Source: an uncultured Dehalococcoidia bacterium
GTDB taxonomy: Bacteria; Chloroflexota; Dehalococcoidia; Lucifugimonadales; G958296245
Direction: 5' to 3'
NCBI GenBank assembly: GCA_958296245.1
Contig: OY282458.1
Coordinates: 1,634,777-1,698,776 of the forward strand
DNA: 64,000 nt
Under the pieces are notes generated by a model, which was not told the DNA's origin, ran no database searches, and worked only from the letters and a program-made list of their open reading frames with translations. The translations under genes and the position numbers were made by a program. Of the stretch, positions 8,150-59,733 are shown one piece after another (positions within the stretch are counted from its first letter, which is position 1; every line of letters starts with the position of its first letter).

Positions 8150-8155
8150 ATCCGG

Positions 8156-8161: not shown

Positions 8162-8190
8162 ACCGCACGGATGCCGCTTTGCTTGAGGCT

Positions 8191-8207
8191 ACCGCCAGCA
8201 TGGCGGT
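8191..8207 (-). terminator. hairpin just after the first glycosidase-like gene
   Basis: ACCGCCA and TGGCGGT form a perfect 7-bp stem with a 3-base loop directly behind the stop codon of the gene at 8207-9883. It has no U-run, so it is a candidate 3'-end structure rather than a certain terminator. Confidence 0.35.
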
Positions 8208-9883
8208 CAGTATGCCCACAACGGCGGGTACTTGTCCATTACGTATCCGCCTAGGCTGCGAAGCTTAACTGAACGGAAAAACTCCCCTTCGCCGTCGTCC
8301 CAGCCAGCCAGATCGTTCCTGTGGCCCAGTCTCTGGACCATGCTCCACTCCGCCCTTCGCAGATGCCGGCCCTCCGTGTCCCAAAAACAGAATCCCTCGG
8401 CCCCCTTGTCGTAAAAGTCCACGGCGTGTTGTCTGAACTGCTCCGGCGGCATGCTTCTGGGCATGACCTCGGGGCGCAGGGACACCGCGGAGTCGCCGGT
8501 GATACCGGCGAAGTACGCCACGTCGATCTCCTCGTCGCGCCAAGGGTAAGGGATGAGCGTGTCGATCAGGCCCTCGCGCACCCACGCCTCGACGTCTATC
8601 CCGTAGAACAGGTTGGCGGCCTCGTCGTTGAGCACGTGCGTTAGTATTTCGACCTTGCGCCCGCGCTCCCGCCCCCTCTCCTCCAAGGCACGGCGGACCC
8701 TCCGCGCGAACGCCGTCATGAACCCGGCCCTATAGCGGAGGTACTCCTCGTCGTCCTCCGGCAGGTCGCGCGGGTCCTTCCCCGTCTTCGCCTTGAAGCC
8801 GTCCACCAGCGGCTTCTCGTACAGCACGTAGGGCGCCCCCCTGACCCAGGTCATACACACGCCGTCGACGTCGTAGCTCGCCAGCTCCAGCAGCAGGGAG
8901 AGCACGTAGCTCTGCATACCCTCGAAGGCGTAGCTCATGCGGCCGATCTCGCGGCCGTCTATGTCGATGCAGCGCCATTCGGGATGGCGGCCCCACACCG
9001 GGCCCGTGTAGGTCCCCTCCAGCGGCGGGGCCGCCTGGAAGGCTCCCATGCGTAGCTGGGCGTTCATCTCCAGTCCCAGCTTGTGCGCGTAGCTGACGGC
9101 CTCCTCCAGCGGGTCGATGTCCTTGCCGAGCAGGATGTTGAGCGCCTCGCCCTTTACGCGGTCGAAGGGCCGCGACCTGTCCTGCGTGTCGATATTCTGT
9201 AGAGCGCCGATACGCGTCGGGTAGGTGCAAATGTCGCCGCCGCTGCCGACACACCAGAAGAGCTTCTTGAAGTCCGTATCGCGGTACGGCTCGACCATCT
9301 CCCATATCTCCTCACGGGTCGTCGGCCTCAGGTAGCCCAGGTAGTCGTCCCCCTCGCAGGCGATGCCGATCAGGGTCTTCGTATCCGTGCGCTGCCGCTC
9401 CCGCCGAACCGCCGAGACCTCGGCGTCCGACAGCGGCACGAGCTTTACGTAGGCTGGATAGGCGCGGGCGGGCCAGCCGCTCATCTGCTGCGCAAACACT
9501 ATGTCCCTGCCCGTCAGGTCTGCGTATATCCAGAAGCGCTCGTCGAAGCTGAAGTAGTCGGGCTCCTCGCGCACGATCCGCGTGAAGCAGGGGTTGTCGC
9601 TGAGGCGTACCTTGACCGTGTCCTGGTTCGTCCCGGTGCTCCACACGTCTTGGCGTCCGGTGCCCCACAGCCCGATGAAGACCGCGTGCCATCCGGTCAC
9701 GCCAAGCGGCAGCGTGACCTCCGGGGCCTCCGTCTCCGGCCCGGTGGACAGCATGACCCCGGAGAACTCCCCCGTCTCGTATGGGATGGTCTGCCAGTGG
9801 TACTTCCGGCGCCGCTCGGACAACGCAGCCGCCGGCCTGCATACGCTCAGATCAGTGACGTAGACGGCCCTAGAGTGGTCCAT
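8207..9883 (-). CDS. glycosidase-like protein, paralogue 1 of 3
   Basis: The 558-residue protein has an N-terminal part of about 160 residues that reads like a beta-sandwich (VTGWHAVFIGLW). A C-terminal part follows that resembles the GHL10/family-10-like glycosyl hydrolase TIM barrel: HPEWRCIDIDGRE near 310-322, then a helix leading to DVDGVCMTW, and LIPYPWRDEE. No signal peptide is seen. Substrate and catalytic residues cannot be assigned. It shares start (MDHS), length and motifs with the next two genes. It is the most diverged: it has GAPYVLYEKP where the others have GAPFLLYEQP. A GGAGG lies upstream of the ATG at 9883. Neighbouring lyase and dehydratase genes suggest sugar or sugar-acid use, by inference. 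Confidence 0.7.
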   Translation of the reverse strand: MDHSRAVYVTDLSVCRPAAALSERRRKYHWQTIPYETGEFSGVMLSTGPETEAPEVTLPLGVTGWHAVFIGLWGTGRQDVWSTGTNQDTVKVRLSDNPCFTRIVREEPDYFSFDERFWIYADLTGRDIVFAQQMSGWPARAYPAYVKLVPLSDAEVSAVRRERQRTDTKTLIGIACEGDDYLGYLRPTTREEIWEMVEPYRDTDFKKLFWCVGSGGDICTYPTRIGALQNIDTQDRSRPFDRVKGEALNILLGKDIDPLEEAVSYAHKLGLEMNAQLRMGAFQAAPPLEGTYTGPVWGRHPEWRCIDIDGREIGRMSYAFEGMQSYVLSLLLELASYDVDGVCMTWVRGAPYVLYEKPLVDGFKAKTGKDPRDLPEDDEEYLRYRAGFMTAFARRVRRALEERGRERGRKVEILTHVLNDEAANLFYGIDVEAWVREGLIDTLIPYPWRDEEIDVAYFAGITGDSAVSLRPEVMPRSMPPEQFRQHAVDFYDKGAEGFCFWDTEGRHLRRAEWSMVQRLGHRNDLAGWDDGEGEFFRSVKLRSLGGYVMDKYPPLWAY

Positions 9884-17873: not shown

Positions 17874-20597
17874 TCAACACGTGGACGGGGCGCATCCGCC
17901 TGCGAGCTTTTCGATACGTACGGCGCAGACCTTGTACTCAGGTATCTTCGAGTCGGGATCGAACGCCGCATTGGTCAGGAAGTTTGCGGCATGGTCTTTC
18001 AGCTTGATGAACGGCACGAAGACCTCCCCTGAACGCATCCTGTCCGTATAGGTAACGCGCCCCTCCAGGCGCCCCCGACGGGTCGCCAGGCCGACCCATT
18101 CCCCGTCGGCCACCCCGTAGCGCACGCCGTCCTCTGCGCTGATGGCTATCTCCAGCTCGGGAGACTTGGCGAGCAGAGCGGACGCGTGTCGGGTGATGGT
18201 GCCGCCGTGCCAGTGGTAGAGGTTGCGGCCCGTGTTCAGGATCAGCGGGAAGCGCTTGTCGGGTAGCTCTTCTGCCTGCGGACCCTGTTCGAATGGCACG
18301 AACTTAGCCCTCGGCCCCCGGGGGAAGTCCGTCTCGTAAAGGAAGCGCGTACCGGGGTGACCGGGCGCCGGACACGGCCACTGAATGCCTCCCTCCGCAT
18401 CCAGACGCTCGTATGAGATGCCGGCGACGATGGGGGTTAGGGCCGCCATCTCGTCCCAAATCTCCGACGGGTGGCCGAACTCGAACTCGGCCTCGACCCC
18501 GAGGCGGAGCCGGCGGCTCATCCGTCGGGACAGGTCGCAAAATATCTCCCAGTCGGGGCGGCTCTCCCCTATCGGCTCGATAACCTTCCGAACACGTTGG
18601 ACGCGGCGCTCGCTGTTGGTGAACGTGCCGTCCTTCTCGGCGAAGCTGGCCGCCGGCAGCACCACGTCAGCCAGTTCCGCTGTCTCGTGCATGAAGATAT
18701 CCTGGACAACCAGGAAGTCCAGATTTCTGAACGCCTTCTCCGCGTGATGCAGATCGGGCTCGCTGAGCAGCGGGTTTTCCCCGGTGACGTACATCGCCTT
18801 GACGCGGCCCTCCAAAGCGGCCTCGACCATGTCGGTTACTACAAGTCCCTCCTCCGAGGGCAGGGGATAGTTGCCCCATCCCTCCCGGAACTTATCCAAG
18901 TTGCCGGCCACGCTCTGGTACCCGGGAAAGTCCGTAGGCAGGCATCCGGCGTCGCCGCAACCCTGCACGTTGTTTTGCCCTCTCAACGGCGACACTCCAC
19001 TGCCCGGCTTGCCGAGCTGTCCCGCCACCAGGGCCAGATTCAACAGGCCGTGGGCGTTGGCGGTGCCGTTGGTATGCTGAGTCACGCCCATGCCCCAGAT
19101 CAGGCATGAACCGCCAAAAGCAGGTCTTGCGTAGGCTCTCGCGGCCCGCGCTATGTCGCCCCCGGGAACGCCGGTCACACTCTCCGCATACTCCAGCGTG
19201 TACTTGTCGACGACCCGGCGCCACTCTTCGAATCCCTCGGTACGGTCGCGGATGAACCCGTCGGCGGCGAGCCCCTCGTCCAGGATGGCCTTCGCCATCG
19301 CGTTAAGCAGCGCGACGTCGGTACCCGGCCTCGGCCGCAGCCACAGTTCGGCGAAGTCGCACATCTCGATGCGCCGAGGGTTGATGACGATGAGCTTGGC
19401 GCCGCGCTCGATGACCGCACGCCGCATTCTAGCGGCAGCCACGGGGTGGTTGGAGTTGGCGTCTGAGCCGATGATGATCAGGCATCCGGCCTCTTCGTAG
19501 TCCTCATACGAGTTGCTTGTAGCCCCGCTCCCCAGCGCCTCCAGCATCGCCTCCACGGAAGGCGAGTGGCACAGCCTCGTGCAGTGGTCTATGTTGTTGG
19601 AGCCCATCACCAGCCGCGCCCATTTCTGCTGCAAGTAGCCGTCCTCGTTCGTCGCCTTGGCCGAGCACAGCGTCGCAAACTCGCTGCCTCTATAGCCGGA
19701 AAGCCGCTCGGCCACGTAGTCCAACGCCTCGTCCCAGGAAGCAGGCGCAAGCTCGCCGTTTCGCCGCAGCAGGGGCGCGGCGAGCCGGTTCTCGTGCTGT
19801 ACGAAGGAATAACCGAATCGGCCCTTGACGCATAGCATACCGAGGCTCGATTGGTTCTCGGGACTGTCCAGCATCCCGATCATCCGCTCGCGCTCGTCGA
19901 CTTGGGCAACGACACCGCAGCCCACGCCGCAGTAGGGGCACGTGGTCTCGACAGACCGTACTACGCCCTTGGGCGGGCTTTTGACGTCGATGGCCCCCGT
20001 GGGGCAGACCGAGAGGCATTGCCCACAGGTCGTACATACTGAGTCGGCCAGCGGCCTATCCATGAACGTGCCTATGCGGCTATCGCGCCCGTCGCCCAGG
20101 AAATCGATGGCGCCGATGAACTGGTGTCCGTCCTGGCAGGCCTGAACGCACCGGCCGCAAAGGATACAGTCCCGCATCGCTATGTCGAACACCGGGTTGC
20201 TGGCGTCTACGGGCTCGCGCTTCCGGCTCTCCCATCGGGACCGCGCAATGCCGTAGCGGCTCGACGCAATGCCCAAGTCCCCGTGGTCTCCGGCATTGCC
20301 TCCCGCGGCGGGGAGCATCGCCATAGTAAGCTCCAGCACCCCCCGGCGGACGTCGGCCACAGCAGGATTGTCGGTCCAAACCCTCATCCCATCCGCCGCA
20401 GGCACGGAGCACGACGCGGGAAAGCCATTCATGCCCTCTATCTCTACCAAGCACGTCCTGCAGGCCCCGATCTGCTTCATGTCGGGGTCCTTGCAGAGCT
20501 GCGATATGTAATCACCCGAGGCGTTGATGGCGTCCAACACCGAGGAGGAGTCGGGAATCCGAACCTCTCGCCCGTTGACCGCAAGGGTGATGTTCAT
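17874..20597 (-). CDS. fdhA: NAD-dependent formate dehydrogenase, molybdopterin catalytic subunit
   Basis: Oxidises formate to CO2 at a Mo or W bis-MGD centre. Domains in order (numbered from the longer TTG frame at 20624; subtract 9 for the chosen start): [2Fe-2S] ferredoxin domain with Cys44, 55, 58 and 72; two [4Fe-4S] sets (Cys153-163, CILCGRCVQAC, and Cys197-207, CTTCGQCLSVC); then the molybdopterin oxidoreductase domain with its cluster (CPYCGVGC and Cys265) and the metal-ligand Cys352 in CTRLCHSPS. It uses cysteine, not selenocysteine. The C-terminal dinucleotide-binding domain begins near 790. ATG 20597 is preferred over the TTG because AGGAA lies nine bases upstream. It is last in an operon with NuoF-like and NuoE-like subunits, the FdsGBA arrangement, so NAD is the likely acceptor. 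Confidence 0.93.
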   Translation of the reverse strand: MNITLAVNGREVRIPDSSSVLDAINASGDYISQLCKDPDMKQIGACRTCLVEIEGMNGFPASCSVPAADGMRVWTDNPAVADVRRGVLELTMAMLPAAGGNAGDHGDLGIASSRYGIARSRWESRKREPVDASNPVFDIAMRDCILCGRCVQACQDGHQFIGAIDFLGDGRDSRIGTFMDRPLADSVCTTCGQCLSVCPTGAIDVKSPPKGVVRSVETTCPYCGVGCGVVAQVDERERMIGMLDSPENQSSLGMLCVKGRFGYSFVQHENRLAAPLLRRNGELAPASWDEALDYVAERLSGYRGSEFATLCSAKATNEDGYLQQKWARLVMGSNNIDHCTRLCHSPSVEAMLEALGSGATSNSYEDYEEAGCLIIIGSDANSNHPVAAARMRRAVIERGAKLIVINPRRIEMCDFAELWLRPRPGTDVALLNAMAKAILDEGLAADGFIRDRTEGFEEWRRVVDKYTLEYAESVTGVPGGDIARAARAYARPAFGGSCLIWGMGVTQHTNGTANAHGLLNLALVAGQLGKPGSGVSPLRGQNNVQGCGDAGCLPTDFPGYQSVAGNLDKFREGWGNYPLPSEEGLVVTDMVEAALEGRVKAMYVTGENPLLSEPDLHHAEKAFRNLDFLVVQDIFMHETAELADVVLPAASFAEKDGTFTNSERRVQRVRKVIEPIGESRPDWEIFCDLSRRMSRRLRLGVEAEFEFGHPSEIWDEMAALTPIVAGISYERLDAEGGIQWPCPAPGHPGTRFLYETDFPRGPRAKFVPFEQGPQAEELPDKRFPLILNTGRNLYHWHGGTITRHASALLAKSPELEIAISAEDGVRYGVADGEWVGLATRRGRLEGRVTYTDRMRSGEVFVPFIKLKDHAANFLTNAAFDPDSKIPEYKVCAVRIEKLAGGCAPSTC

Positions 20598-20646
20598 CTT
20601 GTGCGTTCCTGCGCCGAGGCGCAAGCCGAAGGAGTGCCGAATGCCA

Positions 20647-22230
20647 TCATCTCACCGCCGACATCTCATTCCCGAAGAAGTGGAGGGCGCTGACTACCGG
20701 AGTCCCCGCGGCCTGACCGAGGCCGCACAGGGACGCCGCGCCCACCACGTGCGCCAGGTAACGCAGCTCCTCCAAGTCTCCCTCGGAGCCGCCGTTGGAA
20801 GCGATCCGGTCCAGTGCGTCCACGATGCGCGGCGTACCCTCCCTGCACGGGGTGCATTTTCCGCAGGACTCAGCCGCGTTGTAGGCTGCCATCATGCGCA
20901 CCACGTCCAGCACCTCCGCGCGGCCGTCCAAGGCAATGATCCCACCCGCTCCAAGTATCACCCCGGTGTCGTGAAGCCGCCCGGGAGCGATGGGTATGTC
21001 TAACATCGATTCTGGGATCACCCCGCTGGAAGGGCCTCCCACGGCCGCCCCTGTTAGAGTCTGGCCCGGGACCGGGCCGCCCCCAATCCCCTCTATGATG
21101 TCCCTAATCGGCGTCCCCATCGGCACCTCCACGACACCCGGCCGGCGCACCGACCCGCTGAGGCTGATGAGCTTCGTCCCCGACTCGGCGCCGCTGCCCA
21201 CTCGGCGGAATGCCTCGGCGCCCGTGGCAAGGATATAGGGCACGTTCGCCAGCGTCTCGACGTTGTTGATCACCGTTGGTTTGGCCCACAAGCCCGACTC
21301 AGTGGGAAACGGCGGCCTGAGCCTTGGCTCCCTGCGATAGCCCTCCATTGTGTTCAGCAAGGTAGTCTCTTCACCGCAGACGTAGCCCCCGGCGCCGCGC
21401 CGGACCTCCGCCGCCAGCCCAAACCCCGATCCCAAGACGTCTCCGCCGAGTAGACCAAGATCCGCCGCCTGCTCCAAGGCCAGTTGCATACGTCGGGCGG
21501 ACAGCCCGGCCTCGGCGTTGATATAGAGGTATGCCTCCGAGGCGCCCGTCGCATAGGCGGCGATGATGGCGCCCTCTACGATGCGGTGCGGGACGCCCTC
21601 CATCAGGTGCCGGTCCTTGAATATGCCCGGCTCTCCCTCCTCTGCGTTGACGACGAGATACCGCCTGTCCGACGGAACGCTGCGCGCACTCTCCCACTTC
21701 ATCGCGGCCGGGAAGTACGCGCCCCCCCTACCCCGTAGGCCTGAGGCCTTCACCTCCTCCACCACCTCCCCGGGCGTCATCGACAACGCGCGGGCGAGTC
21801 CCTCGTAACCCCCGTGAGCGACGTAGTCGTCTATGTCCTCCGAATCGATCTCGCCGCAGCCATCCAACGCCAGCCTGTGCTGCCGGGAGTAGAAATCCTC
21901 CGGCCAGGCGGCCCCTGCCGCGTGCGGACCGGCCAGCACCGCCGCCGCGTCCGCAGCGCCCGCGTTGATCAGACGGCGGTTGCCGCCGTCCGGGAGGGCG
22001 GTTATAACCTTGGGCGCTTCGAAGCAGGCGCCGTCGCATCCGGCTTGGACCACGTAGGCGGCGTCCGGCAGGCAGGCGCTGAGCGCCTCAGCGACCCCAT
22101 CCGCCCCGACGGATATAGAGCAGTGCGATACCTGAACGGCCACCCTCGCCCTGCCGTCGCGGCGAGCTTCGAGCCGCCGGGCAGCCTCGCGCCGGATCTG
22201 CTGCAAAGCGGCCTTGGCATCGCCCGTCAC
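20647..22230 (-). CDS. nuoF: NADH-binding FMN/iron-sulfur subunit of formate dehydrogenase (NuoF/FdsB-like)
   Basis: Carries FMN, NAD(H) and a [4Fe-4S] cluster and passes electrons between formate dehydrogenase and NAD. An N-terminal thioredoxin-like region of about 120 residues precedes the NuoF core. FMN/NAD motifs are GLRGRGGAYFPAAMKW and NAEEGEPGIFKDR, then GAGGYVCGEET. Cluster cysteines are Cys456, 459, 462 (CGKCTPC) and Cys502. The start overlaps the NuoE-like gene by four bases, and the catalytic subunit gene starts 49 bases after its stop. No second nuoF is seen near the nuo operon, so it could in principle also serve complex I; genetic linkage favours the formate dehydrogenase. Confidence 0.93.
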   Translation of the reverse strand: MTGDAKAALQQIRREAARRLEARRDGRARVAVQVSHCSISVGADGVAEALSACLPDAAYVVQAGCDGACFEAPKVITALPDGGNRRLINAGAADAAAVLAGPHAAGAAWPEDFYSRQHRLALDGCGEIDSEDIDDYVAHGGYEGLARALSMTPGEVVEEVKASGLRGRGGAYFPAAMKWESARSVPSDRRYLVVNAEEGEPGIFKDRHLMEGVPHRIVEGAIIAAYATGASEAYLYINAEAGLSARRMQLALEQAADLGLLGGDVLGSGFGLAAEVRRGAGGYVCGEETTLLNTMEGYRREPRLRPPFPTESGLWAKPTVINNVETLANVPYILATGAEAFRRVGSGAESGTKLISLSGSVRRPGVVEVPMGTPIRDIIEGIGGGPVPGQTLTGAAVGGPSSGVIPESMLDIPIAPGRLHDTGVILGAGGIIALDGRAEVLDVVRMMAAYNAAESCGKCTPCREGTPRIVDALDRIASNGGSEGDLEELRYLAHVVGAASLCGLGQAAGTPVVSALHFFGNEMSAVR

Positions 22231-22733
22231 GGCAGCGCCGACCCCGGCAGCAGCTCGTTCACCGCCTCAGGGGTCGCCCTGCCCACCCACCGACCGTCCA
22301 CCTCCACAGCAGGCGCCATGGCGCACAGGAAGCCGCAGGCGGCCTCCTCCACGGTCGCAACGCCGCCCCCAGGGTTCTTCCGAAGCCAGGACGCGATCGT
22401 TTCGAGCAGACCCGAGCTTCCACTCATCCAACAGGTTATCCCGGTGCAGACCCTGACAAGGCACTCCCCGGCCCCTTCCAACCGGAGTTCGGTGTAGCTG
22501 GTAGCCGCGCCGTAAACCTCGCTCACGGGTACGCCGAGATACCAGCCGACGACCTCCATAGCCCAGTCGGGCAGATGGCCGAACTCGTGCTGAAGGAAGT
22601 GCAGCGCGGGCAGAAGCTGGCCGCGTTGTCTGGGGAACCTCTCCCGCAGGGCTGCTCGCAACTCGCTCTGCCGCTGCCGCTGCAATGGAGTTACGGGCCT
22701 CGCCCCGCCGCTCCGCTCACGTTCTGACCGCAT
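22227..22733 (-). CDS. nuoE: [2Fe-2S] thioredoxin-like subunit (NuoE/FdsG-like)
   Basis: Small electron-transfer subunit with a helical N-terminus and a thioredoxin-fold C-terminus. The four cluster cysteines are Cys96 and Cys101 (CTGITC) and Cys133 and Cys137 (CGFLC). I use ATG 22733 (168 residues). The longer frame to 22865 runs back into a dispersed repeat and has no support. TATAAT ends six bases before this ATG. It is first in the nuoE-nuoF-fdhA set with a 4-base overlap to the next gene. Confidence 0.92.
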   Translation of the reverse strand: MRSERERSGGARPVTPLQRQRQSELRAALRERFPRQRGQLLPALHFLQHEFGHLPDWAMEVVGWYLGVPVSEVYGAATSYTELRLEGAGECLVRVCTGITCWMSGSSGLLETIASWLRKNPGGGVATVEEAACGFLCAMAPAVEVDGRWVGRATPEAVNELLPGSALP

Positions 22734-22739
22734 GGGGGG

Positions 22740-22745
22740 ATTATA
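22740..22745 (-). promoter_or_regulatory. TATAAT -10 box placed for a leaderless formate dehydrogenase mRNA
   Basis: TATAAT ends exactly six bases before the ATG at 22733, with only a G/C run between on the coding strand. An imperfect CGAT/ATCG palindrome lies just upstream. No clear -35. Confidence 0.45.
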
Positions 22746-22870
22746 TACGATGCGAATCGTGAGAGGCCTCCCTATTCCCGCAGCGCCACCTACTGTCGTT
22801 CGGCTCCCCGAGGGCGCCGCTTTCTCATACATACATCTACCAACCTGCTGCACCTGACCCGCCAACCTGT

Positions 22871-22973
22871 CATTCCGAGCGCAGCGAGGAATCTAGGGGC
22901 TATGCCTACAGACGACGTCGTCTTGGGCGCAACGGCTTTAGATTCCTCACTCCGCTGCGCTCCGTTCGGAATG
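22871..22973. repeat. palindromic intergenic repeat with CATTCCGAGCG arms
   Basis: The left arm CATTCCGAGCGCAGCGAGGA plus ATCTA recurs inverted at 22940-22973, where the arm is 9 bases longer. A central spacer of about 44 bases separates them. The motif is of the kind often scattered in bacterial genomes that, when translated, gives SEESK...AALGMTG. Only one copy is in this window. Confidence 0.7.
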
Positions 22974-22984
22974 GAGTACTTCAC

Positions 22985-23330
22985 CTCGATGTAGGCCGCC
23001 GCAGCCGCAGCTTCCTTCTCGGCCTTGTCTTTAGCAGCGAGAGCCTTGAGCCTCTGGGCCCTTTCTTGTGCGTTCTTTTTTCTGTTAGTCATGATAGTCT
23101 CACCCTTCTTGACTACCTCAGGGTACTTGTCCCCGTGGAACTCCTTCAGAAGAGCGTGATACTCTTTTCTAGGCATCATGAATTCGGATACGCTCACATT
23201 GTGAAGTACTTCCCATATCCTGGAATTAGACACTCCACACTCAACTGCGAGCGTCAACTCCACGACGAGGTTTCTCACCAGACATGTCCTTGAAGATCTT
23301 GCGGATCTTATCTCCATTAAGCTTGGTCAC
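22985..23330 (-). pseudogene. frameshifted small HTH-like gene, probable remnant
   Basis: A perfect AGGAGG six bases before GTG 23330 opens VTKLNGDKIRKIFKDMSGEK and then stops after 29 codons. In a second frame the same stretch continues as LTLAVECGVSNSRIWEVLHN, a helix-turn-helix-like segment, then a lysine-rich tail (KKNAQERAQRLKALAAKDKA) that runs into the palindromic repeat. One frameshift near 23270-23285 would join them. Base composition is visibly more AT-rich than the neighbours, which points to acquired DNA. It may be a dead regulator gene; a programmed shift is less likely. Confidence 0.4.
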
Positions 23331-23484
23331 TTTACACCTCCTACGTGCTCCGCACGCCAACCGGGTCGGCATGAGGAAATTCTGCACGCAACACGGCGAA
23401 TTAGGGGAAGCTCCTTCGTTTTCATCAACCGGCGCCAGTGTTCAAGGGATGTTCCGGCATTGGGATGATTCCGCGCAAGTTCGT

Positions 23485-25344
23485 TCAGCCGCTTTCGCGT
23501 GATGACGTGCAGGACATATCCCTGTCAACCACGTCCCCCAACTCCAGCTCTCGCACCTTTTCGCCCGGTATCATTCCATCCTCGCCCCAGCCCCGGGCGC
23601 GGTAGTAGCTCTGCACCATCATGTCTAGGTCTTCCCTGTCCAACCCAATACCCTGTGCTACGCCCGTCGGTAGCCTTTCGTCCAGTACCCTCGGCGGCAG
23701 CGTGTCGTCGTCCCGCGTCCAGCCCTCGCGGATGTTGAAGAGCTTCTTCAGGTTGTTGATGCGCTCGCCGGCCCTACGGAGGTCTTCGGAGTCGGTCGGC
23801 CAGCCGGTCAGGCGCTCGTATATCTCGGCCGATTCGGCGTAGAAGTCCTCGAATGCCTTGCGCAGGAATTTGCACCACGTCAGCGAGTCCATGACCGCCG
23901 AATAGTCCTCGCCGTCCGCCGTAATGCGTCCGCGCCGCTCGTCGGCGGACAGGCGGTCCACCCGCGCCGAGAAGTCGGCCTCATAGGCCGACGAGCGGTT
24001 GTGGCAGGCGCCCCTTGTGCTTACCGCGAGTCCCAACGCCATGGTCTTCAAGCTTCGCGGCTCGTAACCCGGCATCTCCAGGCCCTTGACGTGCATGGCC
24101 CAGTAATCCGAGCCGCGCCCCACCGCCTGCGCAGCCCGGCGTGACCCCTGCGCCAGCAGGCCGCCGACGCCCTCCCGGCGCGATATGAGGCCCAGCAGGG
24201 CAAGTACGGACTCGGCGTCGCCGAACCGAGGGAGCGGCCCGGAGGTGTCATCGCCCGTCAGGGCGCCGCGCTCCACGCTCTCCATCGCCCACGCCAAGGT
24301 CACGCCCGCACTGATCGTATCCATCCCCAGTTCGTCGCACGCGTGGGAGGCGCGCAGCAAGTCGTTCGGATCACCTATGCCAACGAGGGGGCCCAGCGCG
24401 AAGGCGCTCTCGTACTCCAGGCGTCCCTCCGACCGCCCCCTGTCGTCGTTGACGGCCATGACGTGCTCGCAACCTATGGTGCAACCGGAGCAGTGGGCCG
24501 TCCTGACGCGGTGAGCCTGCACGTACTGTTCGCCGCTCACCATCTCGGCGCCGTCGAAGGTGGACTGCTGGAAGTTCCTGGTGGGCAGCGCGCCCAGCCG
24601 GTTGAAGACCGAGACGTTCGCCACGGTCCCCATCGTCCGGTACTTCTCGGTCGCCGGACCCAGGCTGCGGCGGGTCAGGTCGCGGGCGGCGTTCCGCAGC
24701 CATAGGGGGTCGGACGCCTGCGCGGGCTTCGATCCCCGTACCGCGATGGCCTTCAAGTTCTTCGACCCCATCACGGCGCCCGGTCCCGTCCTGCCGGCCT
24801 GCCGTCCGCCGTCGTTTGCGATGCTGGCGTAGAGCACCCCGCGCTCTCCGGCCGGCCCTATACAGGCGACCCGCGACCCTTCGCCGCACCGCGCCTTGAC
24901 CGCCGCCTCCGTTTCCGACGTACTTAACCCCGCCATTTCCGAGGCGTCAAGGAAATCGACGCCGGCGTCGGTGACCTCGAGCAAGGTTAGACGTCCGGCC
25001 CTGCCGATGACCACCAGGGCGTCCGAGCCCGTCTTCTTGAGCTCTGTGGCAAGGTAGCTCGATGACAGCGAGTCGCCGATGAATCCGGTCAAGGGTGACT
25101 TGGTGACGACGGCGAACTTGCTGGAGGTGGTCAATTTGCTGCCGGCCAGCGGGCTTGTCGCGAATATGAGCGGGTTCTCACCGGAGAGCGGCGCGGCGCC
25201 CGCGGGACAGTGGCGATAGAGTAGGTAGGTCCCCAATCCGATGCCGCCGATGAACCGGCGCAGAACGCTCTCGTCCAGTGGCTCGCGCCACACCGCCCGC
25301 GTCGTCAGATCGACCACCGTTACCCGGCCGTGGTATCCGTACAC
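23485..25344 (-). CDS. aor: aldehyde:ferredoxin oxidoreductase (tungsten pterin type)
   Basis: Member of the AOR family, which oxidises aldehydes to acids (or the reverse) with W- or Mo-bispterin and a [4Fe-4S] cluster, using ferredoxin. Cluster ligands are Cys285, Cys288, Cys292 (CSGCTIGC) and Cys491 (LTWCKF). The N-terminal pterin-binding domain has GGIGLGTYLLY and ATSPLAGSK; GRTGPGAVMGSKNLKAI is a family signature. Length 619 is normal. It is last in a minus-strand run after a MoaD-like protein and Moco genes, the context typical for AOR. The aldehyde substrate is unknown. Confidence 0.93.
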   Translation of the reverse strand: MYGYHGRVTVVDLTTRAVWREPLDESVLRRFIGGIGLGTYLLYRHCPAGAAPLSGENPLIFATSPLAGSKLTTSSKFAVVTKSPLTGFIGDSLSSSYLATELKKTGSDALVVIGRAGRLTLLEVTDAGVDFLDASEMAGLSTSETEAAVKARCGEGSRVACIGPAGERGVLYASIANDGGRQAGRTGPGAVMGSKNLKAIAVRGSKPAQASDPLWLRNAARDLTRRSLGPATEKYRTMGTVANVSVFNRLGALPTRNFQQSTFDGAEMVSGEQYVQAHRVRTAHCSGCTIGCEHVMAVNDDRGRSEGRLEYESAFALGPLVGIGDPNDLLRASHACDELGMDTISAGVTLAWAMESVERGALTGDDTSGPLPRFGDAESVLALLGLISRREGVGGLLAQGSRRAAQAVGRGSDYWAMHVKGLEMPGYEPRSLKTMALGLAVSTRGACHNRSSAYEADFSARVDRLSADERRGRITADGEDYSAVMDSLTWCKFLRKAFEDFYAESAEIYERLTGWPTDSEDLRRAGERINNLKKLFNIREGWTRDDDTLPPRVLDERLPTGVAQGIGLDREDLDMMVQSYYRARGWGEDGMIPGEKVRELELGDVVDRDMSCTSSRESG

Positions 25345-25348
25345 CGGC

Positions 25349-25666
25349 CTACCCTCCCGCTTGGCTGGAGAACAGCAGTATCCGGTCGCCGGGCTTCAGC
25401 GCGACCACGCCCCCCTCCAGGAAGCGGGTGCCGTTCAGATTGAACACGTAGCTCCCCATCAGTCCGGCCTCGTCTTTCCGCACCACGCCCCCTACGAGGC
25501 AGGGAACGACTTCGGCGAGCGACGAAGCGAGAGCCTGGATACCGCAGAAGCCGGGTACTGCTATATCGACCTCACGCCGCCCGGCGAGCAGCTTGGCGTT
25601 TCCGAACAGCTCCACTGTTACGCTCACCGCTGGGACCACGGCTGCATCCCTCGGAAGCTGGACCAT
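25349..25666 (-). CDS. MoaD/ThiS-family small sulfur carrier
   Basis: 105 residues with a ubiquitin-like pattern: VSVTVELFGNAKLLAG at the first strand, a LKPGDRILLF strand near the end, and a C-terminal Gly-Gly, the site where such carriers are adenylated and thiocarboxylated. It lies four bases from the aor gene, and a dedicated MoaD-like protein next to AOR is a common arrangement, so a role in the tungstopterin dithiolene is likely. ThiS is less likely from context. Confidence 0.82.
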   Translation of the reverse strand: MVQLPRDAAVVPAVSVTVELFGNAKLLAGRREVDIAVPGFCGIQALASSLAEVVPCLVGGVVRKDEAGLMGSYVFNLNGTRFLEGGVVALKPGDRILLFSSQAGG

Positions 25667-25675
25667 CGTAGTTAC

Positions 25676-26293
25676 CTATACCCCTGCCGCGGCTAACTCC
25701 CTGGCGCGGTCGAGGTCCTTCTGGGTGTTGACGTTGAAGAAGCTGAGGCGCTCCGGGTCCAGCTCTTCTACGAGGGCCTGCGGCGCCCACGCTACCCGGA
25801 CCGCATCAAAGAACAGCGCTATCTTCAACTCGTTCGACTTCAGGCGCTCCTCGATACGCGGGAGACACGTCTTGGAGTACGCGGCGTGAGTGGGCTCGGG
25901 GCGCCCGTCCAAGACGGGAACGACCGCGTCGTGACCATCCCTGCGGGCCAAGATCTCGGCCCATAGGCCTGTATTGAGAAAGGGCATGTCACACGCAGCG
26001 ACCAGCCCCCACTGCTCCGAGCAGGCTGACAATCCCGTAAAGATGCCGCCAAGCGCCCCGGATCCGGGGTAGCGGTCTATCACGACCCGGGCAGATTCCG
26101 GGATCGGAAGCGTTCGGGCTCTCTCAGCGTCGTTGACGACCACCACGGCGTCGCCGGTGACTTGGGACAGTCTATCCAGCACCCTGAGCACCAGCGGCTG
26201 ACCGCCAATTTCCTCCAGAGCCTTGTTACGGCCCAACCGTCTGCTCATGCCTCCCGCCAATACGATGGCGGAAGCGCCTGTCTCCCGCGTCAC
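25676..26293 (-). CDS. mobA: molybdenum cofactor guanylyltransferase
   Basis: Joins GMP to molybdopterin to form the MGD cofactor used by DMSO-reductase-family enzymes such as the nearby formate dehydrogenase. The nucleotidyltransferase signature IVLAGGMSRRLGRNKAL is at the N-terminus, and PGSGALGGIFTGL and AACDMPFL follow. I place the start at GTG 26293 because GGAGG lies six bases upstream; an ATG at 26317 would add eight residues without such a site. It lies 9 bases ahead of the MoaD-like gene. Confidence 0.9.
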   Translation of the reverse strand: MTRETGASAIVLAGGMSRRLGRNKALEEIGGQPLVLRVLDRLSQVTGDAVVVVNDAERARTLPIPESARVVIDRYPGSGALGGIFTGLSACSEQWGLVAACDMPFLNTGLWAEILARRDGHDAVVPVLDGRPEPTHAAYSKTCLPRIEERLKSNELKIALFFDAVRVAWAPQALVEELDPERLSFFNVNTQKDLDRARELAAAGV

Positions 26294-26335
26294 GTCGCCC
26301 CTCCGTAGCCAAACCATACCATAACGAGCGTGCGG

Positions 26336-28276
26336 CTACGCTACCTCTGCGACTACCTCGCCCAGCGTCGCAGTGTCGTAACCTCCGCTCTCGTCGATCT
26401 GCCGCCGAAAACCGTCGCTCCTTATCACCGCCAGCACGGGCGCGAGCAGCTCGCTCCGGTAGAAGTCCGAGGGTATGATCAGATCGAACTGTTCAGACCG
26501 CAGGGGAACGAAGCCGAGCCCCAGCGCCCGGGCCGCGGATAGTACCCCGAGGCCGGCGTCGGCGCCGCCTCCTGCCACGGCGGCGGCCACGGCCAAGTGT
26601 GTGTACTCCTCGCGGTCGTACCCGCGAATGCCGCTCGCCGCCAGCCCGCTCCCGGCGAGCATGTGATCGAGGAGGACCCTCGTACCGGAGCCGCGCTGCC
26701 TGTTGACGAATCGCACGTCCTTGCGGGTCAGGTCGGCCAACGAGGTCATCTGCTTCGGATTGCCGGCGGGGACTATCAAGCCCTGGATTCGGCGTACCAG
26801 GTTCATCAGCACGACGGGCATCCCGGGCAGGTAACGCCGCACGAACGGCAGGTTGTACTCCCCTGTCTCCTCGTCCATCAGGTGACTGCACGCAACATGA
26901 GACTCGCCGCGCCTCAACGCCAGGAGGCCCCCCAGGCTTCCCACGTTGGAGGAGGCGATGGACATGTCCGGGCGGACCCGTCGGAGCTCGCTTGCCAACA
27001 GGTCTATGACCACGTCGTGGCTGCCTATGATCACCAGCCTGTTATCCAGCTCCTCCGCGGGGCTGGAGAGCTCGACGGTTACCTCCTCTCCGGCAGCTAT
27101 CCCTTCCGAAAAGCGCGGAATGCGAACCAGGCCGTCAGCCTTCACCAGCGACGTTATCACCCCAGCGCCGCGCAGGATGGGGGCCGCGACCATCTTGCCG
27201 CCGACCCGCCCTGCCCTGACGCGCAGGTACTCGTCCTCGCCGAGTGGCGAGGAGACTTTCCGCGCCATGGTGGCCCGGATCTTCGCCCGGACGCTGGCGG
27301 GGACGCCGAGCTTCATCTCGATCAGAGGCTTGAGGAACAGCTCCGACGTAATGGCGGCCGAGACGGGGTACCCCGGGATCCCCAGCAGGGCCTTGCCGTT
27401 TCCGACTCCCAACACCACCGGATGCCCCGGACGGATGGCCACACCGTGCACGACCAGCCTGCCCAGAGATTCGACCACCCGGGCCGTGTAGTCCTCAGAC
27501 CCCGCCGACGAGCCGGCGTTCACGACGACGACGTCGGCCTTCTCCGCCGCGCCTGCGACGCTGGCCCGGAGCAGTTCGACGCTGTCCGGGACCGGGTCGA
27601 GCCTCAGCGGCGACCCGCCCCAGTCGGAAACCATACCGGCCAGCATGAGCGAGTTGAACTCCGGCACCTGCCCGGGACTCCTCGCCTGCCCGGGTGGGAC
27701 TATCTCGTTCCCGGTAGGAATGATGGCGACGATGGGCCGTCGACGCACCGCCGCCTCCGTCAAACCGGCGGCGGCGCACGCCGCAACGTCGTGAGGCTTG
27801 AGTCGGTGGCCCTGAGCCAGCAGCAACTCCGTAGCTACAATATCCTCACCGAGCGGGCGGACGTGCTGGTAGGGAGCAACAGGAGAATATATCTCGACGG
27901 CCCCTGTACCTGTCTCGTGAACTACCTCGATCATCACCACGGCGTCGAAGCCCTCTGGGATAGGGTCTCCCGTGTCAACCCATACCGCCTGCCCGCCAAC
28001 CCGCAGCGTTACGGGCGAGGCCTCCGAGGCGCCCACCGTGTCCCTCGACCGTACCGCCGCCCCGTCCATGGCCGCGGCGTCGTAATGGGGCGCCGACCTC
28101 TTCGCCCATACCGCCTCGGCGGTCACCCGGCCATTAGCCTCGTCGAGCGCGAGGGCTTGAGGTGGAGTAGGCTTCAGCGCCCCCGCCTCCGCCAACGCCG
28201 AATGGAAGCGGCGCACCGCCTCATCCAACGGGAGGTCCTCGAGATAGTATCGACGGCCGGGTGCGTGACCGCTCAT
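26336..28276 (-). CDS. molybdopterin molybdotransferase with C-terminal PBP-like domain (MoeA-PBP fusion)
   Basis: Residues 1 to about 410 form a MoeA-type enzyme (AMDGAAVRS, DTGDPIPEGFDAVV, IPTGNEIV, NAGSSAGSEDYT, GIPGYPVSA), which inserts Mo or W into molybdopterin. Residues from about 425 to 645 form a periplasmic-binding-protein-like domain of the type found in ModE-like or LysR-type regulators (VIIGSHDVVIDLL, NRQRGSGTRVLLDHML, GVLSAARALGLGFVPL). There is no signal peptide, so this domain is cytoplasmic. It may sense or supply oxyanion, which is inferred. A second, ordinary moeA follows directly upstream in the operon; two MoeA types are often split between Mo and W enzymes. Confidence 0.9.
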   Translation of the reverse strand: MSGHAPGRRYYLEDLPLDEAVRRFHSALAEAGALKPTPPQALALDEANGRVTAEAVWAKRSAPHYDAAAMDGAAVRSRDTVGASEASPVTLRVGGQAVWVDTGDPIPEGFDAVVMIEVVHETGTGAVEIYSPVAPYQHVRPLGEDIVATELLLAQGHRLKPHDVAACAAAGLTEAAVRRRPIVAIIPTGNEIVPPGQARSPGQVPEFNSLMLAGMVSDWGGSPLRLDPVPDSVELLRASVAGAAEKADVVVVNAGSSAGSEDYTARVVESLGRLVVHGVAIRPGHPVVLGVGNGKALLGIPGYPVSAAITSELFLKPLIEMKLGVPASVRAKIRATMARKVSSPLGEDEYLRVRAGRVGGKMVAAPILRGAGVITSLVKADGLVRIPRFSEGIAAGEEVTVELSSPAEELDNRLVIIGSHDVVIDLLASELRRVRPDMSIASSNVGSLGGLLALRRGESHVACSHLMDEETGEYNLPFVRRYLPGMPVVLMNLVRRIQGLIVPAGNPKQMTSLADLTRKDVRFVNRQRGSGTRVLLDHMLAGSGLAASGIRGYDREEYTHLAVAAAVAGGGADAGLGVLSAARALGLGFVPLRSEQFDLIIPSDFYRSELLAPVLAVIRSDGFRRQIDESGGYDTATLGEVVAEVA

Positions 28277-28285
28277 CCCAGAGGC

Positions 28286-29518
28286 CTAGAAAGGTTGAAC
28301 GTCAACGTCTTCGCCGGCGTAGAGGCCGCCCTTATCCAGAGGCACGATCACGGTCCCATCGGCTCGTACCATGGTGTAGATGAGGTTGGACTTGCCGAAG
28401 CTCGGCTCAGCGTAGAGGACCCCGCCGCGCCGCGCCAACTTCACGTGCACGTGGTCTTCCCGCCCGGCCTGCGACGGCAGGTCGCGCGTCAGGCGCGCCG
28501 ATACCGCGCCCGGCGCCGGCGGGTCGGAGAGGCCGCTCAGGGCGTATATCGTTGGCCGCACCAGCAACTCGAACACCACCATGGCCGATACGGGGTTGCC
28601 CGGCAGTCCGAAGACAGGCTTGCCCCCCACCAGCGCCACTATGGTGGGTTTCCCCGGCTTGTGGGCCAGCCCATGCACCAGGACCCCCGGCTTTCCGAGG
28701 CTGGCGATCACCTCCGCCGTCATGTCGCGGCTGCTGACCGAGCTGCCCGCCGAGAAGACGAGCGCGTCGCCCCTGTCCAAGCCCTCCTTGGCCGCGCGGC
28801 GTTGTGCCTCGTAGTCGTCGGCGACCAACCCGATGGGCACAGGCGCGCCGCCAGCCTCCCGGATGAGACCGGACACCGTGTAGGTGTTCACGTCGCGGAC
28901 CTGGCCGGGGCCAGGTTTCGAGCTCGGAGGCACCAATTCATCTCCGGTAGATACGATGGACACCCTGGGCCTGGCCGTGACCTCCACGGTCGTGATCCCT
29001 AGAGCCATGAGCCCGCCGACGTCCTGAGGCCTGAGCAGGTGGCCTGCAGGCAAAATGCGGCTACCGGCGCGCACGTCCTCGCCGGGCTGAATGACGTTCT
29101 CGCCTGGAGCCACCGGACTAAGCACCTCTATCGTGCGGTCATCGACCGCCTGCGTCTGCTCTACCATCAACACGGCGTCTCCGCCGCGGGCAAGCATACC
29201 GCCGGTGAACGTGCGCGCCGCCTCCCCGGCCCCGATCGACACGGAAGGCGCCCTCCCCATAGCCACCTCTCCGGCCACCGTCAGATAGGCCGGTTGCCCT
29301 TCGGCAGCTCCGAAGGTGTCGGAGGCTCGCACCGAGTAGCCATCCATAGCAGACCGTGGGAAGGCGGGCAGGTCCTCCGGTGACGTCAGGCTGCCTGCGG
29401 TGACGCGCCCCACCGCTTCGGCAGTAGGCGCGATCTCCACCTTGGGGCGATGGCGCAACCGGGCAGTCAGTGCGCCGAGCGCGTCCCCTGAGGGCAGTAC
29501 GTTGAAGAACTCGGTCAT
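28286..29518 (-). CDS. moeA: molybdopterin molybdotransferase
   Basis: Standard 410-residue MoeA, which uses adenylylated molybdopterin and molybdate (or tungstate) to form the cofactor. Motifs are SAMDGYSVRA, VSTGDELV, SAGSSVSSRDMTAEV, GLPGNPVSAMVVFE and the C-terminal domain IV. I use ATG 29518 (MTEFFNVLP), the typical start, not the upstream frame to 29629, which would run into the fhs gene. A CATAAT ends six bases before this ATG. It lies nine bases upstream of the MoeA-PBP gene. Confidence 0.93.
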   Translation of the reverse strand: MTEFFNVLPSGDALGALTARLRHRPKVEIAPTAEAVGRVTAGSLTSPEDLPAFPRSAMDGYSVRASDTFGAAEGQPAYLTVAGEVAMGRAPSVSIGAGEAARTFTGGMLARGGDAVLMVEQTQAVDDRTIEVLSPVAPGENVIQPGEDVRAGSRILPAGHLLRPQDVGGLMALGITTVEVTARPRVSIVSTGDELVPPSSKPGPGQVRDVNTYTVSGLIREAGGAPVPIGLVADDYEAQRRAAKEGLDRGDALVFSAGSSVSSRDMTAEVIASLGKPGVLVHGLAHKPGKPTIVALVGGKPVFGLPGNPVSAMVVFELLVRPTIYALSGLSDPPAPGAVSARLTRDLPSQAGREDHVHVKLARRGGVLYAEPSFGKSNLIYTMVRADGTVIVPLDKGGLYAGEDVDVQPF

Positions 29519-29524
29519 GTTGCG

Positions 29525-29530
29525 ATTATG
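29525..29530 (-). promoter_or_regulatory. CATAAT -10-like box six bases before moeA
   Basis: Same spacing to the start codon as at rsfS and nuoE-like genes, fitting a leaderless transcript for the moeA run. Weak on its own. Confidence 0.35.
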
Positions 29531-29600
29531 CCGCCGCCGGCCATGAACCATGAGAGGCGCGGGGCATCTTCCGGAGCGCCGCCCCGCGCAGGGGAGGTGT

Positions 29601-31223
29601 CTACAGCCCCAGGACGCGGCCCTCGTCATCGATGTCCAAGGAGCGGGGCGTGCTCGGCAGCCCCGGCATCGTCACTATGGAGCCCGAAATAGGGTATATG
29701 AACCCGGCTCCCACGGACGCCCTCACGTCGGATACTCGGAACGTGTACCCGGTTGGCCTGCCCTTGAGACGCGGCTTATCTGAGATAGACAGGTGGGTCT
29801 TCGCTACGCACACGGGCAGCGTTCCCCACCCGAGCTCGGCGAACGACCTAACGCGCCGTCTAGCCGCTGCGCTCCATTCAACGCCGTCGGCGCAGTACAC
29901 CTGCCGGGCCAGCGCCAGGACCTTTTCCTGCGTCGCGGCGTCCTCCGGGTACAGGTACTTCACTCCCCCGGCTGGCCCGTCGGCCGCTTCGACTACCGCC
30001 TGGGCTAGGTCGATCCCGCCCTCACCGCCCCGCCCGAAGACGTCGCTCTCTACAGTCGCATGAGCCCCGGCAGCCTCCGACCGGCTCTTCACGATCGACA
30101 CCTCGCCCGGCGTATCCGTCGGAAAGCGGTTGATCGCCGTGACCACTGGCAATCCGAACGACCGAATGACCCCGACGAGGTGTTCGACGTTTGCCATGCC
30201 CTCGGAGACCGCCGTTTCGTTGGGTGTATCCAACTCGCGGCGGCGGACCCCTCCATGGGACTTGACGGCCCTTACAGTCGTGACCAGCACCACCGCGCTG
30301 GGCTCCAAGTCGTTGAATCGGGCCTTGATGTGCATGAACTTCTCGAATCCCAAGTCGGCTCCGAATCCGGCCTCGGTCATCACGTAATCGCTGTGGCCCA
30401 GCGCAAGCCGGTCGGCGACCACCGAACTGCACCCGTGGGCGATATTTCCGAACGGCCCCGTATGCACGATAACCGGCTGCCCCTCCAGGGTCTGCACCAA
30501 GTTGGGCTGAATCGCATACCTGAGCAGCGCCATCATCGAGCCCACGGCGTCAACGTCACGCGCCGTGACGGGGCCACCGTCATTAGCGAATCCCACGACG
30601 ATTTTGGACAGGCGCTCCCTCAGATCGTCGAGACCGGACGCAAGGGCCAGGACCGCCATGACCTCAGACGCAGTGACGATGTCGAATCCTGACTCTCTGA
30701 TCGGGGCGTTGTTAGCCCCCCCGAGGCCGGTAACGACGGAGCGCAGCGCCCGCTCCTCCACGTCGACCACGCGCCGCCAGGTGATCCCGCTGGGTGCAAA
30801 GCCCTCGACCTGGCCCCGTTGGGCCGCGTTGTCGGTCAAGGCCGATAGCAGGTTGTGCGCCGACGCCACCGCGTGCGCGTCCCCGGTGAAGTGGATATTG
30901 ATCTCGTCCTCGGGCACGACACGGGCCGCGCCTCCACCCGTGCCCCCGCCCTTGATGCCGAAGATCGGCCCCAAGGACGGCTCTCGGAGCGCGGCCATTG
31001 CCCGATGCCCCAGCCGGCCCATCGCTTGCGTGAGGCCGACTGTCGTTGTGGTCTTGCCCTCGCCCGCGGCCGTAGGAGTCATACCGGTCACCAATACCAG
31101 TTTGCCCCTCGGTCCGTCTTTGGGAATAGCGTCGAGGCTGATCTTGGCCTTGAAGCGGCCGTGCGGGATGAGAGCTTCCTCATCGAGGCCCATGGTTCGG
31201 GCTACGTCGCCTATAGGTAGCAT
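29601..31223 (-). CDS. fhs: formate-tetrahydrofolate ligase
   Basis: Makes 10-formyl-THF from formate, THF and ATP, the entry of formate into folate C1 metabolism. The ATP-binding loop is TPTAAGEGKTT (about 49-59), and EPSLGPIFGIKGG, HFTGDAHA and GANNAPIRESGFDIVTASE are conserved. Length 540 is normal. A GAGGAG lies before the ATG at 31223. It is first in the run that continues with moeA genes and ends at aor, close to the formate dehydrogenase operon, so formate is the shared metabolite. Confidence 0.96.
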   Translation of the reverse strand: MLPIGDVARTMGLDEEALIPHGRFKAKISLDAIPKDGPRGKLVLVTGMTPTAAGEGKTTTTVGLTQAMGRLGHRAMAALREPSLGPIFGIKGGGTGGGAARVVPEDEINIHFTGDAHAVASAHNLLSALTDNAAQRGQVEGFAPSGITWRRVVDVEERALRSVVTGLGGANNAPIRESGFDIVTASEVMAVLALASGLDDLRERLSKIVVGFANDGGPVTARDVDAVGSMMALLRYAIQPNLVQTLEGQPVIVHTGPFGNIAHGCSSVVADRLALGHSDYVMTEAGFGADLGFEKFMHIKARFNDLEPSAVVLVTTVRAVKSHGGVRRRELDTPNETAVSEGMANVEHLVGVIRSFGLPVVTAINRFPTDTPGEVSIVKSRSEAAGAHATVESDVFGRGGEGGIDLAQAVVEAADGPAGGVKYLYPEDAATQEKVLALARQVYCADGVEWSAAARRRVRSFAELGWGTLPVCVAKTHLSISDKPRLKGRPTGYTFRVSDVRASVGAGFIYPISGSIVTMPGLPSTPRSLDIDDEGRVLGL

Positions 31224-57667: not shown

Positions 57668-58654
57668 TTAGGGATAGGGCTGTACGAGAACCCTCATTGC
57701 GCCGGCGGCGTCCCGGCGCTGCGTCAATATCCGGTGCCCGCGCTTCTCCGCCCACACGATGACGTCGTACGCGTTGAGCACGTCGGGCATCACCACCTCC
57801 ACGAAGGACTCCCTGTCACGCTCAACCTGCTCGCTCAGAGCAGCCAGAATGCCCGCACACGTCTTACCGGTGCCGTCGATGATCAGCCACCCGCCGGAAG
57901 ATCCGTTCACCGATACCCGATTCGTGGTGGGATGGACCGCAACCTCGCCGGTTTCGCGGAGCGCCACCTGGCGCTTGAACTCGGCGACCGCCTCCCAGTG
58001 GACGCCGTCGTTACGGTCGCCCTTGGAGCAGACCGCCCCCCTCACGCCAACGATGTCAGGGTTGATACGCGCCAGCTCGTCGAGGTCCTCGACCTTCAGG
58101 TGACCGGAAAGGGCGGTGCTCATCCCCAACTGCTTGCCCTCGAACACCATGTCGCGGAGACCTTGCTCCCCGATGAAGTCGAACAGGTTCCTGCCGTCCT
58201 TGGTAAGAGTGTCGATGAGGAAGCCATCGCAATCACCGTCCTTGGACAGATCGATCATGCGGTGCGGGTCGAGACCGTCATAAAGCGGATTGTCCGCGAA
58301 CAGAGACCCTATCAACTTGGTCTCGGACCCCTCCAGCGCCCTGCGCGAGGCCAGCAGCGTCTCCACCGCGACGTCGTATTCCGTCTTCATGAAGCCGACC
58401 TTGACGGAGGTCGCGTTGAGCAGCCCGGCGGCGTAGACGGCCATGGCGACCGTACCGACCTGGTTGGGGACCACACCCAGGGTAACGCTGGCGTGGTGGC
58501 CCTGGGGCACCGCTTCGCGCACCTCCTTGACCACCCAGGGGTTGGCTGAGCCGACCAATGCCTCCTGCAGGTTTTTCACGTCCACTATGTCGGCGCCGCC
58601 CTCCAGGGCCTGCAGCGCCTCTTCCAAGTTCTGAACACTCACCATGAGGATCAT
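57668..58654 (-). CDS. mfnB: MfnB-type (5-formylfuran-3-yl)methyl phosphate synthase with C-terminal TusA-like domain
   Basis: Residues 1 to about 235 match MfnB (DUF556), which makes a furan from two triose phosphates for methanofuran. From memory of the methanogen enzyme, the active-site residues are matched here as Lys27 (IVDVKN), Lys85 (SVKVGF), Asp148 and Lys152 (LIDTLTKDG). The last 90 residues form a second domain with the order of a TusA/SirA-like sulfur carrier (IIDGTGKTCAGILAAL, then a strand and WAEKRGHRI), with a Cys but not the full CPxP. Its ATG overlaps the stop of the DHDPS-family gene (ATGA). Whether a methanofuran-like compound is made is unknown. Confidence 0.85.
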   Translation of the reverse strand: MILMVSVQNLEEALQALEGGADIVDVKNLQEALVGSANPWVVKEVREAVPQGHHASVTLGVVPNQVGTVAMAVYAAGLLNATSVKVGFMKTEYDVAVETLLASRRALEGSETKLIGSLFADNPLYDGLDPHRMIDLSKDGDCDGFLIDTLTKDGRNLFDFIGEQGLRDMVFEGKQLGMSTALSGHLKVEDLDELARINPDIVGVRGAVCSKGDRNDGVHWEAVAEFKRQVALRETGEVAVHPTTNRVSVNGSSGGWLIIDGTGKTCAGILAALSEQVERDRESFVEVVMPDVLNAYDVIVWAEKRGHRILTQRRDAAGAMRVLVQPYP

Positions 58655-59646
58655 CGCACCTCTCCTATCCCGGCAACAGCCGGGCTGAGCACGGAATCGA
58701 CGGCGCAGCGCAACTGCGCCTTCTCGTCCGGCCCCAAGTCAACCAGCGGGGGCCTGACGTGACCGCCTGCCATGCCCATCAGCTCGCCCCATGCCTTGCA
58801 CAGCGACACCGGGAGCGCGCCGTTGTATCGCTTGACCGTCCGTTGCCACCACTCGTCTGAGAGCGCCTTGATGGGGCGTATGCGCTCATCGTACAGCGCG
58901 TCATCTATGCGGCCCTCCGTGGCCCGCTCGATGAACTGCACGTAGTAGTTCTCCCCCGGCCTGTCGAACCGCCAATCCGAAGTGTTGGCAAACATCACAC
59001 GCTGTTGGAACCCCATTTCCCTCCCCTTGAAGAGAATCCATTCGTCGGGGGTGCTGATGACCGCATCCCCTCCCAACAGCACGTGGGCCTCCATCGACAG
59101 CCGCCGGTCGAAGCTTGCCTCCTTTACCCCGACGACGTTGGGTATCTCGCAAATCTGCTGAAGTCCCTGGGGGTCCAGGATGATTCCAAACTGCGGGGAA
59201 TTGTAGAACATCACCGCCAAGGGCGTGTGGTCCGCAAGCAACCGGACGTACTCCAGCACCTGTTGCGGGGTCTTGGTGACGAAGTACGGGGCGCCAACGA
59301 TCAACAGGTCGAATCCCACCGCCTCCGCGTGGTCTGCCAGGGTCATCATCTCCTTTGCGGAGGTATGGGTGACGTGGGCTCCGATAGGCCATTCGCCGCC
59401 GGCCTCGTCACTGACCACGTCGTAGACCCGGACCCTTTCCTCGCGGGTCAAGCTCCAGAACTCGCCCATGCCCCAGGTGCAGCCGGCCCCGCGTGTGCCG
59501 AGGCTGCGAACGTATCGGATGTTGGCGCGCAGCCCCTCTTCGTCCAATTCGTCCTCGGGGGTAAACGGCGTGACGAGGGTGGACCACTGGCCCCGCAGGT
59601 TCTCATCCGCCCATTCGCGCGCTTCGTCCCCCGCATAGTCTGCCAT
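58651..59646 (-). CDS. DHDPS/NAL-family lyase, second copy
   Basis: 331 residues, class I aldolase superfamily: TLVTPFTPEDELDEEGL at the N-terminus, Schiff-base Lys175 in VVGVKEASFD, and Tyr148 in MFYNSP. The GTTGE loop is replaced by GCTWGMGEFWSL, so dihydrodipicolinate synthesis is not assured. It differs clearly from the copy at 14025. AGGAGG precedes ATG 59646; the open frame continues to 59754 without support. It is translationally coupled to mfnB, suggesting a shared pathway that I cannot name. Confidence 0.82.
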   Translation of the reverse strand: MADYAGDEAREWADENLRGQWSTLVTPFTPEDELDEEGLRANIRYVRSLGTRGAGCTWGMGEFWSLTREERVRVYDVVSDEAGGEWPIGAHVTHTSAKEMMTLADHAEAVGFDLLIVGAPYFVTKTPQQVLEYVRLLADHTPLAVMFYNSPQFGIILDPQGLQQICEIPNVVGVKEASFDRRLSMEAHVLLGGDAVISTPDEWILFKGREMGFQQRVMFANTSDWRFDRPGENYYVQFIERATEGRIDDALYDERIRPIKALSDEWWQRTVKRYNGALPVSLCKAWGELMGMAGGHVRPPLVDLGPDEKAQLRCAVDSVLSPAVAGIGEVR

Positions 59647-59703: not shown

Positions 59704-59733
59704 ATGATATTTATTCCCACGACAGGGTGTCAA
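59704..59733 (-). promoter_or_regulatory. promoter of the DHDPS-mfnB pair
   Basis: On the minus strand TTGACA, 18 bases, TATCAT, with the predicted start about 50 bases before ATG 59646. It lies between the family A repeat and the gene. Confidence 0.6.

Follow-up and report, generated by a model that had tools for sequence, protein, structure and literature searches.

Two adjacent genes, one encoding an MfnB domain joined to a TusA-like domain and the other a protein of the DHDPS family, form a strict unit that is new here; no published description of it was found in the literature searched. We propose, at a probability of roughly 0.4, that the two genes are a dedicated biosynthetic unit in which a two-aldolase route runs via a furan aldehyde phosphate and the cysteine of the TusA-like domain handles sulfur or an intermediate. 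The unit lies on the minus strand of the window (the whole 64,000-nucleotide stretch of DNA that was analysed) and is laid out as follows.

59704..59733, minus strand: promoter-like TTGACA-18-TATCAT (11/12), a consensus match only
58651..59646, minus strand: DHDPS-superfamily lyase/aldolase gene, 331 aa, first of the pair (Pfam DHDPS)
57668..58654, minus strand: MfnB-TusA fusion gene, 328 aa, second of the pair (Pfam, predicted model)
57977..58654, minus strand: MfnB / 4-HFC-P synthase domain, residues 1-226 (PF04476, MJ1099 identity, 4rc1 match)
57896..57976, minus strand: linker, residues 227-253, the end of the last helix and then a low-confidence stretch (predicted model)
57671..57895, minus strand: TusA-like domain, residues 254-328, with Cys266 and C-A-G-I replacing CPxP (fold, Pfam, alignments)

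The promoter-like site lies ~58 bp upstream of the start of the DHDPS-like gene, and a sequence matching a ribosome-binding site, AGGAGG, stands immediately 5' of its ATG. The two open reading frames overlap by four bases (ATGA, 58651-58654), exactly as a preliminary description of this DNA had claimed.

Pairing and fusion across the order

Relatives were sampled as one genome per species. The MfnB domain, the TusA-like domain and an orthologue of the DHDPS-like protein (at least 50% identity) occur in the same 32 of 59 genomes, the window's own included. Across 250 genomes of the window's order, MfnB is present in 118, and the DHDPS-like partner accompanies it in 116 of these and in none of the 132 MfnB-negative genomes. 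In the two genomes without a partner (G482 and G577), MfnB sits at the edge of a contig. In every flanked locus the partner gene sits directly upstream of the MfnB-TusA gene, with the exception of one from Dehalococcoidia UBA1123 (L006), where the upstream genes read as an HpaI-type aldolase, a carboxyltransferase and a CoA-transferase. Chance does not explain the architecture, since about half of the 250 genomes share it. Beyond the order we found none: among 400 sampled Chloroflexota genomes only two carry PF04476, and both belong to the window's order.

In about 53 genomes of the order the DHDPS-like, MfnB and TusA-like parts are read in a single open frame, mostly of 650-750 codons (~700 residues), a count taken from the equal open-frame length reported for both halves, with six examples read directly. 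When 35 MfnB-TusA sequences were placed in a tree, the six fused ones fell on one branch (support 100/99), so that the triple-domain fusion probably arose once within the sampled tree and has been widely kept. The preliminary description had suggested that the fusion protein shares a pathway with the DHDPS-like gene, and the co-occurrence and the natural gene fusions now bear this out; the genetic evidence supports joint action of all three parts. One genome (G015) contains two copies of the pair (loci L040 and L069), and the identities of the second equal those of the G008 copies (family f9). As 10% contamination is reported for this genome, it is probably a mixed bin.

The records behind the related loci are labelled SAR202 cluster bacterium, Chloroflexi or Dehalococcoidia. 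The window's order includes SAR202-labelled genomes, and we infer that the window itself is SAR202, a group that accounts for 10-30% of the prokaryotes in deep-sea plankton (PMC10444878).

The MfnB domain and its DHDPS-like partner

Residues 3-226 of the 328-aa protein match PF04476 (4HFCP_synth) in Pfam with an E-value of 2e-56, scoring 191.6 bits against a gathering score of 22.4, and this is the single PF04476 match in the complete, single-contig 2.69 Mb genome. A PDB sequence search with the protein returned MJ1099 as its sole significant match (E 1e-42; 40% identity over 227 aligned residues), and the AlphaFold model (mean pLDDT 83.6) superimposes on the MJ1099 structure 4rc1 in Foldseek with an rmsd of about 1.6 A and a TM-score of 0.93 over the target. 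The MfnB identity given in the preliminary description is well founded. In the alignment, MJ1099 residues D25, K27, K85, D151, K155, D156 and R217 correspond to D25, K27, K85, D148, K152, D153 and R214, and none of the seven varies across 35 sequences. The catalytic lysines said to be all present are indeed in place; K27 and K85 of MJ1099 belong to the active site. K155 has been named a catalytic/substrate-binding residue and R217 a likely phosphate-binding residue (PMC11365854).

Likeness to MJ1099 thus extends from the TIM-barrel fold to every active-site residue checked. The protein here differs from MJ1099 in its TusA-like C-terminal domain, in its obligate DHDPS-like partner and in a genome that lacks methanofuran pathway markers. 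It also falls well below both NCBIfam equivalog cut-offs for MfnB (193 bits against 341, and 177.6 against 304), so its product could differ; we accordingly call the protein MfnB-like and regard 4-HFC-P synthase activity as probable only.

The 331-aa partner belongs to the DHDPS family (PF00701, E 4e-28 in Pfam). Its Schiff-base Lys175 and its Tyr148 are invariant in 28 sequences, and Pfam and the alignments both place it among the class I aldolase barrels of the DHDPS superfamily. With the DHDPS/NAL/KdgD enzymes of this superfamily it shares the Schiff-base lysine, the catalytic tyrosine and a well-aligned N-terminal half, whereas its C-terminal half is divergent and its substrate specificity is not readable from sequence. 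The positions of DHDPS Thr44, Thr45 and Arg138 are held by Gly59, Met60 and Phe153. The phenylalanine at the carboxylate-binding arginine position is invariant among the partner sequences, a replacement that would suit a non-carboxylate aldehyde. A true DapA (dihydrodipicolinate synthase) was considered and rejected given Gly59/Met60 and Phe153 in the active site and a score of 74.5 bits against the NCBIfam cut-off of 206. The nearest NCBIfam models are of KdgD, DapA and NanA types, and with all of them the partner scores far under the cut-off. The partner forms a distinct orthologous group of its own, with within-group identity of at least 50%, against at most 33% for other paralogues among the matches listed.

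Genomic context and the C1-carrier question

The conserved neighbours of the pair read as prephenate dehydratase, Trk/TrkA-type, UspA-like, YtxH-like, RecG-like and DAK/DegV genes, and are housekeeping genes. No conserved C1 or sulfur gene cluster was found around the pair, and adjoining it we recognised neither a cysteine desulfurase, sulfurtransferase or thiol enzyme nor a transporter or sugar dehydrogenase.

This setting bears on a catabolic reading, in which the MfnB domain would act on an organosulfur compound or a phosphorylated sugar, cleaving or rearranging it, and the DHDPS-like enzyme would take a 2-keto-3-deoxy acid in the manner of KdgD. KdgD-type models are the closest to the partner in NCBIfam, and non-phosphorylative sugar oxidation is known for SAR202 group I (PMC10444878). 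Nevertheless, we consider this reading improbable: the MfnB residues are intact, the pair occurs as a single copy per genome among conserved housekeeping genes, unlike paralogue-rich catabolic genes, and the transporter or sugar dehydrogenase that would suit such a role is not recognised beside it.

The preliminary description had instead raised a furan-based C1 carrier, citing formate dehydrogenase, formate-THF ligase and tungsten enzymes in the same window. These genes do exist: positions 17874-31223 hold a formate dehydrogenase-like molybdopterin enzyme, a NuoF-like protein, an AOR-type aldehyde ferredoxin oxidoreductase and formate-THF ligase (FTHFS), together with two MoeA-type proteins, one of which has a PBP-like domain. 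As context for a C1 carrier they fail, since the formate dehydrogenase-like, FTHFS and tungsten-type AOR genes lie 26-40 kb from the pair and are not conserved neighbours of it. FTR is the formylmethanofuran formyltransferase family. In the methylofuran-type cluster, exemplified by Azospirillum, the MfnB homologue is accompanied by a uridylate-kinase-like protein and adjoined by DUF447 and DUF6513. FTR, DUF447 and DUF6513 (MfnF-type) were each absent from all eight MfnB-positive genomes of the order that were searched, the complete own genome included, and methanogen controls were positive. We reject the C1-carrier reading on the basis of these absences. A methanofuran- or methylofuran-type carrier pathway would agree with the intact MfnB active site and with the C1 genes elsewhere in the window, but beyond the missing markers, FTHFS indicates folate-based C1 metabolism and conserved C1 genes beside the pair are absent. 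We regard such a pathway as very improbable and already largely refuted.

Nor is MfnB outside methanogens and methylotrophs the surprise that the preliminary description took it for, as homologues occur in Streptomyces, Rhizobium and others. On two Streptomyces plasmids (NZ_CP108584.1 and NZ_CP108274.1; loci L078 and L079) an MfnB homologue forms a conserved cassette with aldehyde dehydrogenase, alcohol dehydrogenase and a SAM methyltransferase. This bacterial MfnB in a non-methanofuran context looks like a furan natural-product route and, unlike the pair here, has no DHDPS-like or TusA-like part. Such non-C1 contexts make a non-coenzyme furan plausible.

The TusA-like domain and a proposed route

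Residues 254-328 take up a beta-alpha-beta-alpha-beta-beta arrangement both in the full-length model and in a model of the domain alone. Linker residues 243-253 fall below pLDDT 50 in the AlphaFold model, and the MfnB and TusA-like domains are thus predicted to be joined by a disordered linker. Because whole-model Foldseek searches were swamped by TIM barrels, the C-terminal domain was modelled by itself (pLDDT 93.6). This model matched SirA-like 3hz7 (TM 0.82/0.83, 1.5 A) and 3lvj_C, the TusA chain of IscS-TusA (TM 0.80), in the PDB; YeeD was also matched. The Foldseek E-values were modest (0.004-0.03), as expected of a 75-residue domain. Each of the 33 C-termini scanned hit the Pfam TusA family, at best with E 4e-7; the window copy by itself scored weakly (E 0.009, under the gathering score). 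A PDB profile search with the domain sequence gave chance matches only. The structure prediction proposed in the preliminary description has returned the TusA/SirA-type domain that it had read in the C-terminus.

The domain resembles the TusA/SirA/YeeD carriers (PF01206) in fold, in the position of the cysteine and in a D..G..C and D...W...GH pattern. Cys266 occupies the TusA active-cysteine position in the alignment. Every TusA-like domain sampled has this cysteine, and several Asp, Gly, Trp and His residues are likewise invariant, at a mean column identity of 60%. The domain differs from those carriers in its weak window-copy score, in never occurring apart from MfnB in the 59 genomes, and in its motif: in place of CPxP stands C-[AS]-x-[IV], both prolines gone and the cysteine kept.

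Operon and fusion tie two Schiff-base aldolases to each other, which suggests that one enzyme acts on the aldehyde that the other makes. We propose that the MfnB domain most likely condenses two molecules of glyceraldehyde 3-phosphate to a furan aldehyde phosphate (4-HFC-P), as conservation of the active-site residues suggests. The DHDPS-like enzyme, as the second Schiff-base aldolase, would then extend the furan aldehyde, perhaps by adding a 2-oxoacid of the pyruvate type. The flexible tether and invariant cysteine suggest that the TusA-like domain visits an active site, where Cys266 could deliver persulfide sulfur to the intermediate or hold the intermediate covalently. 

A somewhat less probable alternative is that the two aldolase steps proceed without sulfur chemistry, the TusA-like domain serving as a tail with a structural or regulatory role or as a docking module for aldehyde channelling between the two active sites. 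The lost CPxP prolines speak against a sulfur role, TusA-like proteins can have non-sulfur roles, sulfur genes are not recognised next to the pair, and fusion of both barrels in about 53 genomes suits channelling. However, the invariant Cys, Asp, Gly, Trp and His residues at such column identity exceed what a passive tail would need.

In about half of the sampled order genomes an enzyme seemingly able to form a furan ring bears a tail resembling a sulfur carrier and is constantly paired with or fused to a second aldolase-type enzyme; this points to an undescribed furan pathway, possibly sulfur-bearing, and not to methane-type C1 metabolism. Only tentatively do we suggest its fullest form, a new pathway, widespread in this SAR202-type order, that starts from triose phosphate and a 2-oxoacid and in which a single DHDPS-MfnB-TusA protein, or its two-gene form, makes a metabolite or cofactor that is a sulfur-containing furan or thiophene. 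Strictly paired, widely retained, fused in one lineage and with an intact furan-synthase site, the unit is a handle on a SAR202 metabolite. It would place MfnB chemistry outside C1 metabolism, and its small size makes in vitro work on the entire unit feasible.

Another non-CPxP TusA family is present in the genomes examined. At two loci (L073, G022:C1 at about 944400-945300; L074, G006:C13 at about 7750-8600) a CGxG-type TusA-like domain is fused to a MetE-like protein, and beside the fusion stand another TusA-like protein and one resembling DsrE, all named by sequence reading.
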